Shown: positions 4,775 through 63,949 of the stretch, piece by piece
How the letters are laid out: every line of letters starts with the position of its first letter
How positions within the stretch are numbered: position 1 is the first letter of the stretch
Assembly: GCF_900089495.1 (NCBI RefSeq)
Contig: NZ_LT605203.1
Location: 483,501-547,500 of the forward strand
DNA length: 64,000 nt
Reading direction: 5' to 3'
Source of the DNA: Thiomonas sp. X19
GTDB taxonomy: Bacteria > Pseudomonadota > Gammaproteobacteria > Burkholderiales > Burkholderiaceae_C
The notes under the pieces: model-generated
Databases searched by the model: none
What the model was told of the DNA's origin: nothing
Seen by the model: only the letters and a program-made list of their open reading frames with translations
Translations under genes and position numbers: made by a program

Positions 4775-7098
4775 TGTCCGAGCGTTGTTGTGCCCCCAAG
4801 GACGGCGCGCTGCGCCGCCACGACCCCCGTGGGAGTCAAGCAAACTTGGGAGCGGCCCGGCGTTTCATGGCTCGCCTTGCGGCGCCATGGCTGGGTCGGG
4901 TGGCCGCCAGCCTGACCTTGTTGCTCGGCTTCGCGAGTGTGGCTGCGGCCCAATCCACCAATGTGCTGCAAAGTGTGGGCGCCAGCAGCCAGGGCGGCGA
5001 AATCGTCGTGCAACTCGAGTTCGCGCAGCCACTGGCGGCGCCGCCGGCCGGCTTCACCATTGACCAGCCAGCCCGCATCGTGCTCGACTTCCCCGGCGTC
5101 AAGTCCGAAGTCAGCCGCAGCGCCGTCAGCTTCGATCAGGGCAATCTGCGTTCCGCCAACGTGGTCGAGGCGCAAGGCCGTTCCCGTGTCGTGCTCAACC
5201 TGCGCAGCTCCACCACCTACAAAACCGAAATTCTGGGCAAGCGCCTGCTGGTGCTCATCAGCCCCGCGGCCTCCGCGCCGCTGAATGCCTCCGTCGGTTC
5301 CGGCGCATCGCTGACGCAGCCGGTGCACTTCGCCGACAGTCTCAACACCCAGCAACTCCCGTTGCGCGGCGTGGACTTCCACCGTGGCCCTGACGGCTCA
5401 GGACAGGTCGTCGTCAATCTGCCCAACAACCAGGTTGGCGTCGACATCCGCCAGCAAGGCCAGAACATCGTCGTCGACTTCCTCAAAACCGCGTTGCCGC
5501 CGGAACTGCGGCGTCGGCTGGACGTCGGTGATTTCGCCACGCCGGTGAAATCCATCACCACCTTCCAGATGGGCGACAACGTGCGCATGGTCGTGCAACC
5601 CAGCGGCGCCTACCAGCAAAGCGCTTATCAGGCCGACAACAAGTTCGTGCTGGAAGTGCGGCCTGAAACGCCCAACCCCAACCAGCTCGCGCCCGGCAAC
5701 GGCCCGGGTTATCACGGGCCGAAGCTGTCGCTCAATTTCCAGAACATCGATGTGCGTTCCTTGCTGCAGGTGTTCGCCGACTTCACCGGCCTGAACGTGG
5801 TGGTGAGCGACTCGGTCACCGGCAACCTCACCCTGCGCTTGAAAGACGTCCCCTGGGACCAGGCGCTGCACATCATCCTCCAGGCCAAGGGCCTGGGGGA
5901 GCGCAAGGAAGGCAATGTGTTGTGGATTGCGCCGCGCGACGAAATCCTGGCTCGCGAAAAGTCCGAACTCGAGGCCAAGAAGTCCATCCAGGACCTTGAG
6001 CCGCTCAAGTCCGAGACCTATCAACTGAACTACCAGAAGGCGGCCACCGTGGTGGGGCTGCTGACAGGCGCGGCAGGTGGCGCCCAATCAAGCGGTGCTG
6101 GCGGAGCGGCTGCCATGCCTCCGATTCCAGGTTTTTCCTCGGGGGCAGGCGCGCCAACCTCGCGCATTCTTTCCCCGCGTGGCACGGTCATTGCCGACCC
6201 ACGCACCAACCAGATTTTCGTCACGGATATCCCATCGAAACTGGAAGAGATCGGCCGTCTCATCGGCAAGATCGACAAGCCGGTGCGTCAGGTGCTGATC
6301 GAGGCGCGCATCGTCGAGGCCTCCGACCAGTTCGGGCGCAGCCTGGGGGCCAAGCTGGGATTTCTCCGAACCACAATCCCTGGGCCTGGTAATAATCCAG
6401 GAATCGCCGTAGGGGGTAACTATCTAGGTGTCGGCGAACAAACGGGCCAAGCAGCTGTGACCAGCGGCTCGTACATTCCAGATACCCAGTTCGTGAATCT
6501 TCCAGCTTACGGACTTGCCGGAAGCATCTTGGCGGGTGCGGTGCCGAGTTCAGTTGCGGTGAGTCTGTTCAATGCTGCAGCAAACCGTTTCATCAACCTC
6601 GAGCTCTCCGCGATGGAGGCCGATGGCAAGGGCAAGATTGTTTCCTCCCCGCGTGTGATTACGTCAGACTTGCAAAAAGCCACCATCGAGCAAGGTACCG
6701 AAATTCCTTATCAACAAGCGACTTCGAGTGGCGCCACCTCCGTGACTTTTAAGAAGGCTGTGCTGAGTCTTGATGTAACTCCTCAGATCACACCGGATGG
6801 CAACGTCATCATGAACGTCGAAATTCATAAGGACAGTCAGGGCGCCGCGACCAATGGGGTGCCCTCCATCAACACCAATACCGTGACGACACAGGTCCAG
6901 GTGGAAAACGGCGGGACGGTTGTTCTTGGAGGTATCTACACCTCGTCAGAACAAAACCAAACCAACAAGGTACCCCTGCTCGGAGACATTCCGGTATTGG
7001 GTTATCTGTTCAAGGTCAAGAGCAAGGCCATTCAGAAAAGCGAACTGATGGTTTTCCTCACTCCAAAAATTGTCAGTCATGCAGATCTGTCACGATGA
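4771..7098 (+). CDS. pilQ: Type IV pilus secretin PilQ
   Basis: PilQ is the outer-membrane secretin through which the pilus passes. The 775 aa product has a signal peptide (hydrophobic part about residues 41-60, cleavage after AAA), two AMIN domains (about 70-170 and 195-290), an STN/N0 domain (LSLNFQNIDVRSLLQVFADF), an N1 domain, a Gly/Ser-rich linker and the C-terminal secretin domain. The start at 4771 is supported by AGGAGAG just upstream and overlap with the pilP stop. Residues about 5-32 are encoded by a dispersed repeat; the in-frame ATG at 4867 (Met33) would remove it but has no good ribosome site. From about 6350 to the end the DNA is visibly less GC-rich and uses rarer codons than the first two thirds. 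Confidence 0.95.
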   Translation: MMSERCCAPKDGALRRHDPRGSQANLGAARRFMARLAAPWLGRVAASLTLLLGFASVAAAQSTNVLQSVGASSQGGEIVVQLEFAQPLAAPPAGFTIDQPARIVLDFPGVKSEVSRSAVSFDQGNLRSANVVEAQGRSRVVLNLRSSTTYKTEILGKRLLVLISPAASAPLNASVGSGASLTQPVHFADSLNTQQLPLRGVDFHRGPDGSGQVVVNLPNNQVGVDIRQQGQNIVVDFLKTALPPELRRRLDVGDFATPVKSITTFQMGDNVRMVVQPSGAYQQSAYQADNKFVLEVRPETPNPNQLAPGNGPGYHGPKLSLNFQNIDVRSLLQVFADFTGLNVVVSDSVTGNLTLRLKDVPWDQALHIILQAKGLGERKEGNVLWIAPRDEILAREKSELEAKKSIQDLEPLKSETYQLNYQKAATVVGLLTGAAGGAQSSGAGGAAAMPPIPGFSSGAGAPTSRILSPRGTVIADPRTNQIFVTDIPSKLEEIGRLIGKIDKPVRQVLIEARIVEASDQFGRSLGAKLGFLRTTIPGPGNNPGIAVGGNYLGVGEQTGQAAVTSGSYIPDTQFVNLPAYGLAGSILAGAVPSSVAVSLFNAAANRFINLELSAMEADGKGKIVSSPRVITSDLQKATIEQGTEIPYQQATSSGATSVTFKKAVLSLDVTPQITPDGNVIMNVEIHKDSQGAATNGVPSINTNTVTTQVQVENGGTVVLGGIYTSSEQNQTNKVPLLGDIPVLGYLFKVKSKAIQKSELMVFLTPKIVSHADLSR
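4785..4866 (+). repeat. Dispersed composite repeat, copy R1 (inside pilQ 5' end)
   Basis: The GC-rich block GCCCCCAAGGACGGCGCG is followed by a palindromic CGACCCCCGTGGGAG and the conserved core TTGGGAGCGGCCCGGC (4846-4861). The core arms are reduced to AAAC/GTTT here, so the hairpin is degenerate compared with the other copies. The whole copy is read as protein at the start of PilQ. Confidence 0.8.
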
Positions 7099-35873: not shown

Positions 35874-37025
<1,152 letters not shown>

Positions 37026-45376: not shown

Positions 45377-46084
45377 ATGGTCACCATCCATCGAGCCGAG
45401 CCAGCATCATCCGCCCGGTCGCGGGCACCGACGCACCCGCGCGCGGTCGACCGTTTGCTGGTCGCGGCGGACAACGCGTTGAAAACCCTGGCCGGCGGCT
45501 TGCAGCCGTCGCGGCCGATGCCTGCGCCGCCCCTGGCGAGGCCGGCGGCCAGTCAGGGCACTCCCTTGTCCCTGGCCGAGCGCGAGCTTTCGGCCAGGCT
45601 GATGCGGGTGAACCACGTCGGCGAAATCTGCGCCCAGGCGCTGTACCAGGGGCAGGCGCTGGCGGCGCGCGACGGCCAGTTGCGCCAACACTATCTGCAC
45701 GCTTCGCGGGAGGAGGGCGATCACCTGGCCTGGTGCGCGCAGCGCCTGCGCGAACTGGACTCGCGCCCGAGCTGGCTCAACCCGCTGTGGTACGCCGGGG
45801 CCTTCGGCCTGGGCCTGCTGGCCGGGCGCGTGGCGGGCGACAAGGTGAGCCTGGGCTTCGTCGTGGAAACCGAGAACCAGGTGGAGCAGCACCTGGCTTC
45901 GCATCTGCAACGCCTGCCGCAGGCGGATGTGGAGTCGCGCGCGGTGGTGGCGCAGATGCAGGCCGACGAGGTGGAGCATGCGCGGGCGGCGGACAAGCTG
46001 GGCGCCGCCCGCCTGCCCGCCCCGGTGCGCTGGGCCATGCGCGGCGCAGCCATGATGATGACGACGACGGCGCAATGGGTTTGA
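45377..46084 (+). CDS. coq7: 3-demethoxyubiquinol 3-hydroxylase (Coq7)
   Basis: Coq7 is a di-iron monooxygenase of ubiquinone synthesis that hydroxylates ring position C-6. The 235 aa protein shows the four-helix ferritin-like ligands: [18 protein letters not shown] with the first Glu, [11 protein letters not shown] with Exx[13 protein letters not shown], and [11 protein letters not shown] with the second ExxH. The first 60 residues are a variable, Pro/Ala-rich extension. Start ATG 45377 follows AAAGGAG. Repeat copy R3 follows the stop. Confidence 0.93.
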
Positions 46085-46089
46085 GTGTC

Positions 46090-46162
46090 CCCAGGGTCGG
46101 GCCGAGCCCGCCTCGCCCCCCGCGAGGGGCAAGAAAACTTGGGGCGGCCCTGCGTTTTCTTG
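46090..46162 (+). repeat. Dispersed composite repeat, copy R3
   Basis: The GC-rich block (CCTCGCCCCCCGCGAGGGG) is followed by a hairpin with arms CAAGAAAAC (46130-46138) and GTTTTCTTG (46154-46162), 9 bp and perfect, around the core TTGGGGCGGCCCTGC. It lies just after coq7. Confidence 0.88.
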
Positions 46163-46234
46163 AAAGTGGCTGACCCTGCGCCCAGGCCCGTCGCGGGCGC
46201 GGAAATCGCGTCGGCAGTCCCTAAAATCAGCGCC

Positions 46235-46360
46235 ATGTCGACGGTCTCCTCGAACGCGCACCAAGGCACTTGCAATCTGCGAGGCGCGGGCATGCCCCGA
46301 ATGCAGGCGTTTGCATGGCATGCGGCGCGACGGCAAGAGCCTTCAAGCTTGAGGCCATGA
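46235..46360 (+). CDS. Small ORF upstream of and overlapping rlpA (hypothetical)
   Basis: This 41-codon ORF starts eight bases after a TAAAAT -10-like element (46222-46227), and its stop overlaps the rlpA ATG (ATGA). It begins MSTVSSNAHQGTCNLRGAGM and resembles nothing I know. The overlap suggests translational coupling to rlpA. No clear ribosome site is seen, so translation would have to be leaderless or weak. Confidence 0.3.
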   Translation: MSTVSSNAHQGTCNLRGAGMPRMQAFAWHAARRQEPSSLRP

Positions 46361-46378
46361 GCAGCGGCCTCAAGCTTG
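46344..46378. promoter_or_regulatory. 13-bp perfect inverted repeat enclosing the rlpA start codon
   Basis: CAAGCTTGAGGCC (46344-46356) and GGCCTCAAGCTTG (46366-46378) flank a 9-base loop ATGAGCAGC, which begins with the rlpA ATG. As RNA, the start codon would sit in the loop of a stable hairpin, a possible translational control structure. Confidence 0.65.
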
Positions 46379-47556
46379 TTGCCGGACTTTCCAGCGACGC
46401 CGGGGTCGCATGCCATCCCGCCCCCGGCAAAGGCCGGGCGACGCTGGGGTTTGTGCCGTTGCTGGCGGTGTTGTTCGCCATGGGCGGCTGTTCCAGCGTG
46501 CCGCTGAGTTCGCAAGGGACCGAGGGGCAGGCGCCGGTGAATGGTGAAAGCGGCTGTCATGCACCCCCGCCCAACACCCGCGCCGCTTACAACCGCACCT
46601 ACCGCGTGCTGGGGCGCAGTTACACGCCGCTGCGCAGCGCGTCGGGCTACGAGGCGCAGGGCAAGGCGTCGTGGTATGGCTGGGAGTCGGGCTCGACCAC
46701 GTCCATGGGCGACCGCTTCAACCCGCGCGCCTTCACCGCGGCCAGCCGCACGCTGCCGCTGCCGACCTGTGTGCAAGTCACCAATCTGGCCAATGGCCGC
46801 AGCGCGCTGGTGATGGTGAACGATCGCGGGCCCTTTGTCGATAGCCGCATCATGGACCTGTCCTACGGCGCGGCCCAGGCGCTGGGCATCACGCGCACGG
46901 GGACGGCCCAGGTGCGCATCGTCGCGCTGGCCGGCAATGTCCCGCCAGCAACGCCATCGCCCGCCAGCGGCGCGCCGGCGACGCCAGCCACACCCCAGCC
47001 TGGGCCGTCCCCCATGCCGGCCAATCCGGCGCTGCCCGAGCAGTTTGCGCCGGCTCCCGCCGTGGCTGTGGCTCAAACCGGGGCGGTGCAGGATGCGGGC
47101 ATCGTGACGCAGCCCCTGCCACCCCTGCAAATGGCTGCCGTCGACAGTCCCACGAGCCCGAATCCTGCGGATGGTGGGGTGCCGCCAGCGCCTGTGCAGC
47201 TGGCGACGGGCTTTTCGGCGACTCCAGTGTCATCGACCCAGCCAGCGCCGCCGGCCCTGGCTGGCCCCGCGCCCATGCCGGCCTCCGCGCCGCAGGAACT
47301 TGCGCCGCAACTGCCGGGCTCGCCCCAAACCTATTTACAGACCGGCGCCTTCGCGCTGCAAGCCAACGCCCAGGCCGAGCGCGCGCGCCTGATGGCAGCG
47401 GGGGTCGGGCCGGTGATCATCGTCCCGGGCACGATTCATGGCGCGGTGTTTTACCGGGTGCAGATCGGTCCCCTGGCCTCCAGCCAGCCGGATGCGGCGC
47501 TGCAAAGCAAACTCGGCAGCCTCGGGCTGAACACCTATACCCTGGTGCAGCAATAG
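46357..47556 (+). CDS. rlpA: RlpA-family septal ring lytic transglycosylase with SPOR domain
   Basis: RlpA cleaves peptidoglycan strands lacking stem peptides during septation. The 399 aa product has a delayed lipobox (AMGGC), the double-psi beta-barrel domain (GKASWYGWESGSTTSMGDRF, then VMVNDRGPFVDSRIMDLSYG with the catalytic Asp), a long Pro/Ala-rich linker and a C-terminal SPOR domain (TYLQTGAFALQANAQAERAR). I chose ATG 46357 because the upstream small ORF stops there in an ATGA overlap; in-frame ATG 46315 and TTG 46270 are alternatives. The hydrophobic leader starts only about 35 residues in, unusually late for a lipoprotein. Confidence 0.85.
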   Translation: MSSGLKLVAGLSSDAGVACHPAPGKGRATLGFVPLLAVLFAMGGCSSVPLSSQGTEGQAPVNGESGCHAPPPNTRAAYNRTYRVLGRSYTPLRSASGYEAQGKASWYGWESGSTTSMGDRFNPRAFTAASRTLPLPTCVQVTNLANGRSALVMVNDRGPFVDSRIMDLSYGAAQALGITRTGTAQVRIVALAGNVPPATPSPASGAPATPATPQPGPSPMPANPALPEQFAPAPAVAVAQTGAVQDAGIVTQPLPPLQMAAVDSPTSPNPADGGVPPAPVQLATGFSATPVSSTQPAPPALAGPAPMPASAPQELAPQLPGSPQTYLQTGAFALQANAQAERARLMAAGVGPVIIVPGTIHGAVFYRVQIGPLASSQPDAALQSKLGSLGLNTYTLVQQ

Positions 47557-47582
47557 TGCAATAGTGCAATAGTGCAATAGTG
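47551..47582 (+). repeat. Perfect 8-bp tandem repeat, four units
   Basis: CAATAGTG is repeated four times without change. The rlpA stop codon (TAG, 47554-47556) is in the first unit, so changes in copy number would alter only the 3' untranslated region. Confidence 0.9.
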
Positions 47583-47600
47583 CAGCCAGACTGCGGCGGG

Positions 47601-47639
47601 TCGAACAACGGGGGCGGCAAAGCAGCCCCCGTTGTTCGA
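47601..47639. terminator. 15-bp perfect hairpin downstream of rlpA
   Basis: TCGAACAACGGGGGC and GCCCCCGTTGTTCGA pair perfectly around a 9-base loop. It is followed by AAAAACA rather than T residues, so it may be a terminator-like or recombination-related palindrome rather than a classical intrinsic terminator. Confidence 0.55.
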
Positions 47640-47715
47640 AAAACACCACCGGCGGTCTGCCGACAGTGCAAAACGTCAAGCACAGCGCCCCAAACGTCCG
47701 CTTCGCGCCAGCCCT

Positions 47716-47880
47716 GCGAAGGGGCCAGGAAGCTCGGGAGCGGCCCTTCGTTTCCTTGGAAGGGCCCCAGACCTGCCGCTTTGCGTCAGGCGCCCCCGAG
47801 GGGGATGAGAAAACTTGGGGTGGCCCGGCGTTTTCTCATGAGCATCCCAAGCCCCTGGGGGCGCCCGGCGTTCGCGAAGA
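47716..47880 (+). repeat. Cluster of dispersed repeat copies R4, R5 and a fragment
   Basis: R4 (about 47716-47768) is diverged, with core CTCGGGAGCGGCCCTTC and imperfect arms. R5 (about 47786-47839) has the GC block CGCCCCCGAGGGGG and a perfect 10-bp hairpin ATGAGAAAAC (47805-47814) / GTTTTCTCAT (47830-47839) around TTGGGGTGGCCCGGC. A further fragment (CCCCTGGGGGCGCCCGGCG, 47853-47871) follows. The cluster lies just upstream of the IS110 element. Confidence 0.8.
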
Positions 47881-49478: not shown

Positions 49479-49847
49479 TTACTTCTTGGCGCTCAGGCAT
49501 TCCTTCATGAACTTCTTGCGATCGTCGCCCTTCAGCGCCTTGGTCTTGGCGTCTTTGCTGCAGGTCACCATTTTTTCTTGCTGAACGGTCAGCTTCTTGC
49601 CTTCGTGCGCAGCGGCGGCCGGCATGGCTTTCTTTTCTTCGGCCATCTTGGACGGTTCGGCAGCCTTGGCGCTCAGGCATTCCTTCATGAACTTTTTACG
49701 GTCCTCGCCTTTGAGCGCCTTGGTCTTGGCGTCGGCGTTGCAGGTGGCCATTTTGCTGGTTTGCGCGGTGGCGGCTTGGGCTGAAACCAGGCCTGGCAGG
49801 GTGAAGGCGGCACAGGACAGGCTGATGGCGACGATGATCTTCTTCAT
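49479..49847 (-). CDS. PsiF repeat protein, exported
   Basis: The 122 aa protein has a signal peptide (MKKIIVAISLSCAAFTLPGL, cleavage near VSAQA) and two copies of the PsiF repeat (CNADAKTKALKGEDRKKFMK and CSKDAKTKALKGDDRKKFMK, each ending ECLSAK). Each repeat has a conserved Cys pair. PsiF in E. coli is phosphate-starvation inducible, but its function is unknown. The DNA of the two repeats is nearly identical, suggesting internal duplication. Its 3' end lies within about 45 bases of the transposase stop, so the IS inserted just behind this gene. Confidence 0.88.
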   Translation of the reverse strand: MKKIIVAISLSCAAFTLPGLVSAQAATAQTSKMATCNADAKTKALKGEDRKKFMKECLSAKAAEPSKMAEEKKAMPAAAAHEGKKLTVQQEKMVTCSKDAKTKALKGDDRKKFMKECLSAKK

Positions 49848-62392: not shown

Positions 62393-62863
62393 ATGAATCA
62401 ACTGGCCCAGATTTTGCCGCTGGCGCATGTTCAGATGAACGTGGAGGCCAGCAGCAAGAAACGCGCGTTCGAGCACGCGGGTCTGCTGTTCGAGAACAAC
62501 CTGGGGCTGGCCCGCGCCGTCGTCACCGACAACCTGTTCGCCCGCGAACGCCTGGGTTCCACCGGGCTGGGTCAGGGCGTGGCCATTCCGCATGGCCGCA
62601 TCAAAGGTCTGAGGCAACCGAGTGCCGCGCTGGTGCGCCTCGCAAGCCCGGTGCCTTTCGAGGCCCCTGACAATCTGCCGGTGCAGTTGCTGGTGTTCCT
62701 GCTGGTGCCCGAAGCGGCGTCCGCCAAGCACCTCGAAATCCTCTCCGCCATCGCCGAAATGTTGTCCGACGACGGCTTTCGCCAGCGCCTGCTGGACGCG
62801 CCGGACGCCATCCAGGCGCACCGCCTGGTGCATGACTGGTCGACGCTGCAGCATGCGGCCTGA
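62393..62863 (+). CDS. ptsN: PTS IIA-like nitrogen-regulatory protein PtsN (EIIA-Ntr)
   Basis: PtsN is the terminal phosphoacceptor of the nitrogen-related PTS and regulates potassium transport and sigma-54-linked processes through protein contacts. The 156 aa protein carries the phosphorylatable His67 in GQGVAIPHGRIKGL and the family segments FARERLGSTGLG and LVFLLVPEAASAKHLEILSA. It precedes hprK, with repeat copy R7 between them. Confidence 0.95.
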   Translation: MNQLAQILPLAHVQMNVEASSKKRAFEHAGLLFENNLGLARAVVTDNLFARERLGSTGLGQGVAIPHGRIKGLRQPSAALVRLASPVPFEAPDNLPVQLLVFLLVPEAASAKHLEILSAIAEMLSDDGFRQRLLDAPDAIQAHRLVHDWSTLQHAA

Positions 62864-62868
62864 ACATG

Positions 62869-62946
62869 CCCCCTGGGGCGCCGCGCTGCGCCGCCCCACC
62901 CCCCGAGGGGGCAAGCCAAGCTTGGGACGGCCCGGCGCTTGGCTTG
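62869..62946 (+). repeat. Dispersed composite repeat, copy R7 (between ptsN and hprK)
   Basis: The GC block (CCCCCTGGGGCGCCGCGCTG) and the palindromic CACCCCCCGAGGGGG are followed by a perfect 10-bp hairpin CAAGCCAAGC (62912-62921) / GCTTGGCTTG (62937-62946) around the core TTGGGACGGCCCGGC. It lies 46 bases before the likely hprK start. Confidence 0.88.
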
Positions 62947-62992
62947 TGTCCGCCATGAATCCGTCGCATCGCCGGCTTTCGCCAGCAGCCAC

Positions 62993-63949
62993 TTGAAAGC
63001 CGCAACCCTTTCCGCCGACAGCCTGTTCGAGGCCAACACGTCCTTGCTGAAATGGCAATGGCTGGCCGGGCAGAGCAACCCCGAGCGCCGCTTCGACGAC
63101 GCCGCCGTGGAAGGCGCCAGCTCCGGCGCCGATCTGGTCGGATACCTCAACTACATCCACCCTTACCGGGTGCAGATTCTCGGCTGGCGCGAGGTGCATT
63201 ACCTGGTGCATGCCGACGAGGCCGACAGCGCCCGGCGCATTCGCCGTGTGGTCGGACTGGAACCGCCGGCGCTGGTGATGGCCGACGGCGCCAAGCCCCC
63301 GGACACGCTGATCGAAGCCTGCGAGCAAGCCCGCATTCCGCTGTTCACCACGGCCGAGCCGGCAGCTTTCGTCATCGACGTGCTGCGTGCCTACCTCTCG
63401 AAACTGTTCGCCAACCGCACCACGCTGCACGGCGTGTTCATGGACATCCTGGGTCTGGGCGTGCTCATCACCGGCGAATCCGGTCTGGGCAAGAGCGAAC
63501 TGGGGCTGGAACTGGTTTCGCGCGGCCACGGCCTGGTGGCGGACGATTGCGTGGAACTGCTGCGCGTGTCGCAAACCGCCATCGAAGGCCATTGCCCCAA
63601 GCTGCTGCAGAACCTGCTGGAAGTGCGCGGCATCGGCATTCTCGACATCAAGACCATTTTTGGCGAGACCGCGGTGCGACGCAAGCTGCGCCTGCGGCTG
63701 ATCGTGCACCTGGTGCGGCGCGATACCCAGGACCAGGACTTCGAGCGCCTGCCCACCGGCTATGTGCGGCAGGACGTGCTGGGCGTGGCCATCCGCAAGG
63801 TGCTCATTCCGGTCGAGGCCGGGCGCAACCTCGCGGTGCTGGTGGAGGCCGCGGTGCGCAACACCATTCTGCAGTTGCGCGGCATCGACACCTTCAAGGA
63901 GTTCCAGGATCGTCAGCGTGTGGCCATGCTGGAAAACAGCGACGATTGA
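62993..63949 (+). CDS. hprK: HPr kinase/phosphorylase
   Basis: HprK phosphorylates and dephosphorylates a regulatory serine of HPr-like proteins. The 318 aa protein has an N-terminal Mur-like domain ([20 protein letters not shown]) and the C-terminal kinase domain with Walker [33 protein letters not shown] and the signature [21 protein letters not shown] chose the TTG at 62993 because homology begins [12 protein letters not shown]; an upstream TTG at 62939 would add residues read from the repeat edge. It is the last gene in the window and ends 51 bases before the right edge. Confidence 0.93.

Follow-up and report, generated by a model that had tools for sequence, protein, structure and literature searches.

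Beta-proteobacterial repeat elements (BREs) are GC-rich sequences of about 75–91 bp that were described as full and partial copies in Bordetella, Acidovorax, Delftia, Polaromonas and Rhodoferax, where they form tandem arrays with variable unit number and are mostly intergenic, with some copies located wholly within coding sequence (main text of Hot et al., 2011; PMC3110155). REP and REPIN sequences are short dispersed hairpins in tandem or clustered arrangement whose stem foot carries a GTAG or CGTC tag, and compensated stem changes are pointed out in a figure legend of one report (PMC3733652). Rickettsia palindromic elements (RPEs) are short palindromes of about 150 bp that were described as in-frame insertions in numerous unrelated genes for proteins (PMC10969869). 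Paired stem changes with a retained loop were described for hairpins that are maintained by template switching in resident RNA genes (PMC8794818).

The repeat described here was found in a 64,000-nt stretch of Thiomonas sp. X19 DNA (the window), and it shares with BREs the unit length, the variable tandem arrays, the occurrence of some genic copies and the hosts, which are the same genera or relatives. Judged by these traits rather than by comparison of the letters, it very probably belongs to the BRE family. In contrast to our observations, covariation is not a subject of the main text of PMC3110155, in which the word "hairpin" does not occur and "stem-loop" appears in one reference title only. 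According to the same text, BRE locus 3 lies beside lexA in B. pertussis, B. parapertussis and B. bronchiseptica, and BRE loci are not conserved in B. avium; near lexA in four Bordetella/Achromobacter loci we obtained no match to our model. The RPEs, to which the repeat can be likened by description, belong to another bacterial class and are longer, and here intergenic copies outnumber genic ones. From REP/REPIN sequences the repeat differs by the lack of a terminal tag and of an association with RAYT transposases and by the 38% of X19 copies that are genic, and from the hairpins in resident RNA genes by being a dispersed repeat. Beyond BRE, no other description of the core or of the Comamonadaceae repeat was found in open-licence papers, and the covariation, the exchange of stems and the extent of in-frame insertion appear to be new.

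Structure, copies and hosts of the repeat

An earlier reading of the window from sequence only had proposed a dispersed repeat with five clear copies and one diverged copy, R4. The window indeed contains six copies (Table 1): five exact or near-exact cores were located at 4846 (+), 36798 (−), 46139 (+), 47815 (+) and 62922 (+), and R4 was recovered by a covariance model. The four arm pairs quoted in that reading are correct letter for letter.

Table 1. Copies of the repeat in the window and the three hairpins of the complete copy R7
Feature	Position	Strand	Description	Evidence
Copy R1	4790..4875	+	decayed; hairpins A and C recognizable; stem B down to AAAC/GTTT	model match 4820-4871, 41.6 bits
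Copy R2	36772..36858	-	stem B GAAGGACGC/GCGTCCTTC	model match 61.7 bits
Copy R3	46087..46165	+	stem B CAAGAAAAC/GTTTTCTTG; core of the CCCTGC subfamily	model match 57.0 bits
Copy R4	47709..47759	+	diverged, core TCGGGAGCGGCCCTTC	covariance model 28.4 bits, E 0.002
Copy R5	47772..47842	+	stem B ATGAGAAAAC/GTTTTCTCAT; hairpin A CCTGCCGC-TTT-GCGTCAGG	model match 54.3 bits
Copy R7	62866..62948	+	complete	model match 66.0 bits
R7 hairpin A	62874..62898	+	variable stem	DNA fold; class comparison
R7 hairpin C	62899..62911	+	CCCCC-CGA-GGGGG	DNA fold and alignment
R7 hairpin B	62912..62946	+	GGG/CCC inner stem with ACGG loop, separated by a TT/GGC internal loop from the outer stem CAAGCCAAGC/GCTTGGCTTG	

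The repeat unit of about 80 bp consists of three hairpins in the order A–C–B. Aligned copies read, from 5' to 3', TGAGCGCCCCCAGG, hairpin A with a variable stem, CCCCCCGAGGGGG forming hairpin C (CCCCCC-GA-GGGGG), hairpin B and often (A)GAG. The stems of hairpin A fall into several classes that are not related to each other, such as GGGTCGG-CTCG-CCGACCC and CCTGCCGC-TTC-GCGTCAGG, and its region contains a stem of at least 6 bases in 86 of 100 X19 copies, compared with 44% of shuffles. Hairpin B combines a variable stem of 8–10 bp with a nearly fixed tip, its 5' to 3' order being outer stem, TT, GGG, (A)(G)CGG, CCC, NGC and opposite stem arm. Of the loop that had been regarded as constant, the nearly fixed tip thus stands, but most of it is a second short stem, GGG/CCC, set off by a TT/NGC internal loop, and the core occurs in 39 variants among 99 X19 copies, a few of which dominate. 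The unit of about 80 bp, the two further hairpins, the in-frame genic copies and the very probable identity with BRE go beyond what the sequence-only reading had described.

Exact cores (CTTGGGN{0,2}CGGCCCGGC) occur 38 times in the 4.67-Mb X19 genome, whereas the backward pattern occurs once. With a covariance model derived from 43 selected copies, at least 127 matches were obtained at E ≤ 0.01 (best 150 of 5253 candidates scored), 19 of which form a single tandem array. Hairpin C alone, used as anchor in the window and in the stretches of genome G011, gave 30 anchors and 6 hairpins, a number too small for use. The X19 copies are dense near the origin and thin out around the presumed terminus: of the tenths of the genome counted clockwise from dnaA, the first contains 24 copies and the second 20, compared with 4–5 in each of the sparsest. 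Replication-strand targeting was rejected, as 52 copies are on the leading and 57 on the lagging strand.

In tandem arrays the period is 78 (TRF) and the number of units varies, with two units at locus L021, two in G001 and more at L063. Array neighbors can belong to differing subfamilies (L046, L058, L065, L319), as do the tandem neighbors R4 and R5. A related subfamily that also differs in the inner stem was observed in tandem arrays of G011 (L309, L319), where hairpin C reads CCCCGC-CAA-GCGGGG. Comamonadaceae and Achromobacter (L179, L191, L216, L235, L245, L254) have a type with the same core and another 5' half, CCTCCGCGCT..GCGCTGCGGT, that often ends in CTCAT(G) beside a possible gene start. 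Between the SPOR-domain gene and R4/R5, the window also contains a long perfect GC-rich hairpin followed by AAAA/T-poor sequence (47598–47641), which looks like an ordinary terminator type distinct from the repeat. Short units of about 9 bases that resemble GCAATAGT are repeated in tandem from the stop codon of the SPOR-domain gene on (47550–47585), and a direct duplication of 90 nt with 87% identity was seen between 49485–49574 and 49665–49754.

With stricter filters and at most 99 candidates scored, the covariance model matched in 33 of 60 genomes including X19, namely in 24 of 27 congeners, 7 of 8 other genera of the family and 1 of 24 genomes of other families. Presence in Bordetella and Comamonadaceae was confirmed among the matches listed. 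The copy numbers exceed those reported for BRE because a covariance model was used: five named genomes contained 36–121 copies (Bordetella genomosp. 4, 36; Achromobacter, 51 and 76; Variovorax, 69; Xenophilus, 121), a MAG labelled Bordetella parapertussis 108, and Acidovorax delafieldii and Delftia 8 and 3, respectively. Only 3 of 72,556 plasmid records matched, one of them covering >80% of the query, and there were no matches in phages.

This distribution bears on the possibility that the repeat is REP-like and mobilized by a RAYT (Y1 transposase). Its short, dispersed, hairpin-forming and tandem nature and one Y1_Tnp match in X19 might speak for this. However, 15 of 24 congeners have no Y1_Tnp match yet 3–99 copies each (at most 99 candidates scored, many of the genomes being drafts), and four genomes with strong Y1_Tnp matches (G003, G006, G020 and G021) have 1, 0, 0 and 0 copies, with both present in G009 and G014. 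Within about 1.5 kb around 30 Y1 loci, no core with 0–1 substitutions was found, while eight matches with two substitutions were distributed over seven loci. The stem feet of the X19 copies, GGGGGTC-arm and arm-(A)GAG, contain no GTAG or CGTC tag such as described in PMC3733652. Movement by RAYT is therefore extremely improbable, in line with the doubt that had been voiced from the sequence, and the mobilizing enzyme is probably not a RAYT/Y1 transposase; no mobilizing gene was found.

Several other known structures were rejected. The 3' arm of X19 copies is followed by (A)GAGCG or by gene sequence and lacks the T run of an intrinsic terminator. Integron attC sites carry R boxes; the AAC/GTT that adjoins the core is not conserved in the repeat, in which stems ending in GCC/GGC, ATC/GAT and others occur. 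The E. coli dif pattern gave no match.

Covariation of the hairpin B stem

The proposed compensatory change of the two arms was found far above chance. In the first collected set of 41 X19 copies, which was anchored on the core alone without use of the structure, pairs 2–9 are Watson-Crick in 33–38 copies, compared with 15–28 expected when arms are dealt randomly (0/1000 permutations per position), and the excess fades at about pair 10. Perfect 9/9 stems are present in 19 of these 41 copies versus a permutation mean of 1.9 and a maximum of 8 (2000 permutations), and in 41 of 177 copies from other genomes (mean 0.5, maximum 4). Among 101 distinct rows from 119 X19 matches, in an alignment that was fitted to the model and hence leans to structure, 121 cells are changed on both sides, whereas shuffles gave 23.2 (sd 4.0; 0/500 reached the observed value) and slid controls 13–32; overall, 94.5% of the cells are paired. 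A plain MAFFT alignment of the 43 chosen copies agrees with this result (116 versus 30). The inner stem can change as well, from GGG/CCC to CGG/CCG in six X19 copies. The genome-wide covariance check that the sequence-only reading had suggested thus revealed arm complementarity above that of shuffles and arms that are not identical everywhere. Its description of the arms as unrelated between copies needs correction, since the 61 distinct arm pairs among 99 X19 copies are mostly variants of CAAGGAAAC, distinguished from each other by substitutions that are paired between the arms. With the array collapsed, 48 of these 99 copies have 8/8 pairs.

A hairpin that acts in the transcript, as 3' UTR stabilizer, terminator or small RNA, would have its stems held by selection on RNA folding in place, and such selection is expected to favor G.U pairs. 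The mismatched cells in the 99 X19 copies comprise 28 A.C, 19 G.T and 27 others, out of 791. In the core-anchored set, which was limited to copies with at least 6/9 pairs after 10 nested-module and 48 poorly paired copies had been set aside, G.T and A.C numbered 6 versus 8 in X19 and 27 versus 26 elsewhere. As G.T is about as frequent as A.C, nothing in the mismatches points to RNA. Of the initial suggestion that a cruciform or RNA hairpin is selected or that one arm is rebuilt from the other, both parts stand to some extent, with the RNA version weakened. Rebuilding would correspond to template switching, in which one arm is copied from the other in replication, so that mutation alone re-perfects stems without selection on shape. 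Equal frequencies of G.T and A.C are expected from this process, which was described as keeping the loop while fixing the stem (PMC8794818).

Comparison of species indicates how rapidly the stems differ. One copy from each of eight species, hand-picked for perfect stems and the same body type, gave 90 differences in 1708 body positions (5%) and 104 in 504 positions of stem B (21%); the stem differences were 52 both-sided and 0 one-sided, of which the zero is expected from the choice of copies and the fourfold rate is informative. Between copies of G026 and G025, two paired stem changes coincide with 0 differences in 61 body bases, and some nearly identical bodies across species already differ at 2–3 fully paired stem positions. 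Such nearly identical bodies with different, fully paired stems are also in favor of template switching. Among the copies seen in a score-sorted list, which is not a random sample, all nine of G013 have the stem CAAGCCATC and 8 of 12 in G026 have CAAGAAAAC, and five perfect stems were present in the 21 copies of G005.

Insertion sites and the fate of resident copies

Copies occupy sites at which a relative has no insertion; they lie within genes as well as between them and form tandem arrays. R2 is an 84-bp in-frame insertion in a homocysteine S-methyltransferase gene (35874–37025, minus strand; Pfam PF02574), at a site that is empty in 23 congeners and has a 24-bp remnant in the sister genome G001. 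R3 immediately follows a COQ7-like gene, the call of which ends with the stop codon at 46084. R7 lies directly after a stop codon at 62863 and ahead of an HPr kinase gene (62993–63949; Pfam), and its site is empty in G011 with a length difference of 90. Length differences at single-copy sites are mostly 72–93 bp, and partial copies of 48 and 59 were also found. Among 35 X19 versus G011 rows with a length difference above 20, including one of doubtful homology (L034) and with L003, L011, L020-type or L420-type loci counted twice if they contain more than one copy, the difference is a multiple of 3 in 28 rows compared with about 12 expected. At genic sites this holds for 20 of 20 differences, which is partly circular because an insert that breaks the frame is not callable as genic; the figure for all 35 rows is therefore preferable. 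No clear target-site duplication or target consensus was visible in the junctions inspected.

According to a codon-model gene caller seeded on GC by codon position, 38 of 100 X19 copies are inside open genes, 22 in sense and 16 in antisense orientation, and 62 are intergenic. The genic hosts, as judged by reading of the flanks, include asparagine synthase and aldo-keto reductase (L026, L412). In-frame copies add segments of 25–30 residues to dozens of conserved X19 proteins. At locus L417 (2536–4082; G000:C3, ~2929036–2930582), an ORF of 759 aa includes 19.8 tandem units of 78 bp without a break in its frame, and these contribute about 520 residues as a 26-residue repeat; the C-terminal part of this ORF matches MdcG of the malonate decarboxylase operon.

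The position of the intergenic copies could speak for the RNA function considered above: 15 of 36 copies on the same strand as the upstream gene have their start at −14 to 0 nt relative to its stop codon, versus 1 of 23 in the other orientation. Furthermore, RNA folding can additionally pair TT/GG of the core, and bprJ transcripts were found in a BRE-containing region (Hot et al., main text of PMC3110155). Besides the mismatch frequencies, the share of genic and antisense copies and the decay of resident copies argue against an RNA element, as does the single-strand folding of the window copies, which is not always unusual (RNA z −2.9 to +0.5). Rfam 15 gave three weak unrelated matches below the gathering scores, none of them at a copy. 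Taken together, we consider an RNA element improbable.

Resident copies seem to decay, whereas pairing seems to be kept in the copies that spread. In 24 pairs of near-identical tandem neighbors (body identity ≥ 0.95), 10 stem differences are one-sided versus 3 both-sided, and the both-sided share climbs from 0.29 to 0.76 with body divergence. R1 (row L005), in which pairing extends over 4 bases only, differs on one side from its G001 ortholog L359, which is decayed to an equal degree; further one-sided differences are present in L021/L356 and L023/L354, and the copy L420:1180 is perfect in G011 and decayed in X19. Stem mismatches and body deviations are not correlated (rho −0.05, p 0.62), a comparison that is biased by copies weak in both falling below detection.

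The predominance of one-sided differences between tandem neighbors, together with the lack of paired changes in the inspected single-copy ortholog pairs, speaks against template switching. Turned-round loops are also nearly absent, with hairpin C only upstream in 132 and only downstream in 1 of 173 well-paired copies, although selection on the loop could remove them. On the other hand, template switching could account for the 17-bp stem of L034 that extends into the flank, for the 5' arm of L014 that mirrors the host-like 3' flank, and for a matching indel in both arms that distinguishes L400 (X19) from L350 (G001), both of which are arrays. As an explanation by itself we regard it as rather unlikely.

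Entire hairpins may also be exchanged. In array units at L488 of the MAG labelled Bordetella parapertussis, a body stretch of 43 nt is identical and hairpin B is unlike, with both-sided changes at 5 of 9 pairs and a different inner stem, which suggests whole-hairpin exchange or insertion beside an older copy. L028 has the appearance of a hybrid that arose by deletion from two units still present in G001. Possibly, a mobile element that is recognized by its hairpin and moved by a non-RAYT enzyme has stem B as a replaceable, lineage-specific part, with a constant body, an own perfectly paired stem in each lineage and modules swapped in arrays; we are doubtful about this reading.

Proposed recognition of shape during spreading

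The arms and the inner stem of hairpin B change together around a nearly fixed tip, suggesting that shape matters more than the letters of the stem in spreading. We propose, with about even confidence, that the repeat, about 80 bp in length, is a DNA hairpin element that is non-autonomous and probably mobile, that its shape is recognized in DNA while it spreads and that it decays afterwards. The folded DNA, with the fixed tip of hairpin B and the body, would be recognized at copying or insertion, and the stem letters would be free provided that the arms pair. Once inserted, a copy would be free of selection on shape and would decay one side at a time. Since a single segment of about 33 nt comprises the two arms as well as the tip, swapping between copies could exchange the entire hairpin B in one event. 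We favor recognition of shape over template switching, its main competitor as an explanation, although the two may act side by side.

If this is true, a poorly known repeat of Betaproteobacteria would represent a natural experiment on hairpin recognition, in which one body is combined with dozens of interchangeable paired stems. It would also offer a case in which selection on DNA shape could be told apart from mutation by template switching, a distinction that is usually blurred in RNA genes. The added protein segments, of 25–30 residues and up to about 520 in one protein, are relevant to annotation and to the origin of new protein segments.
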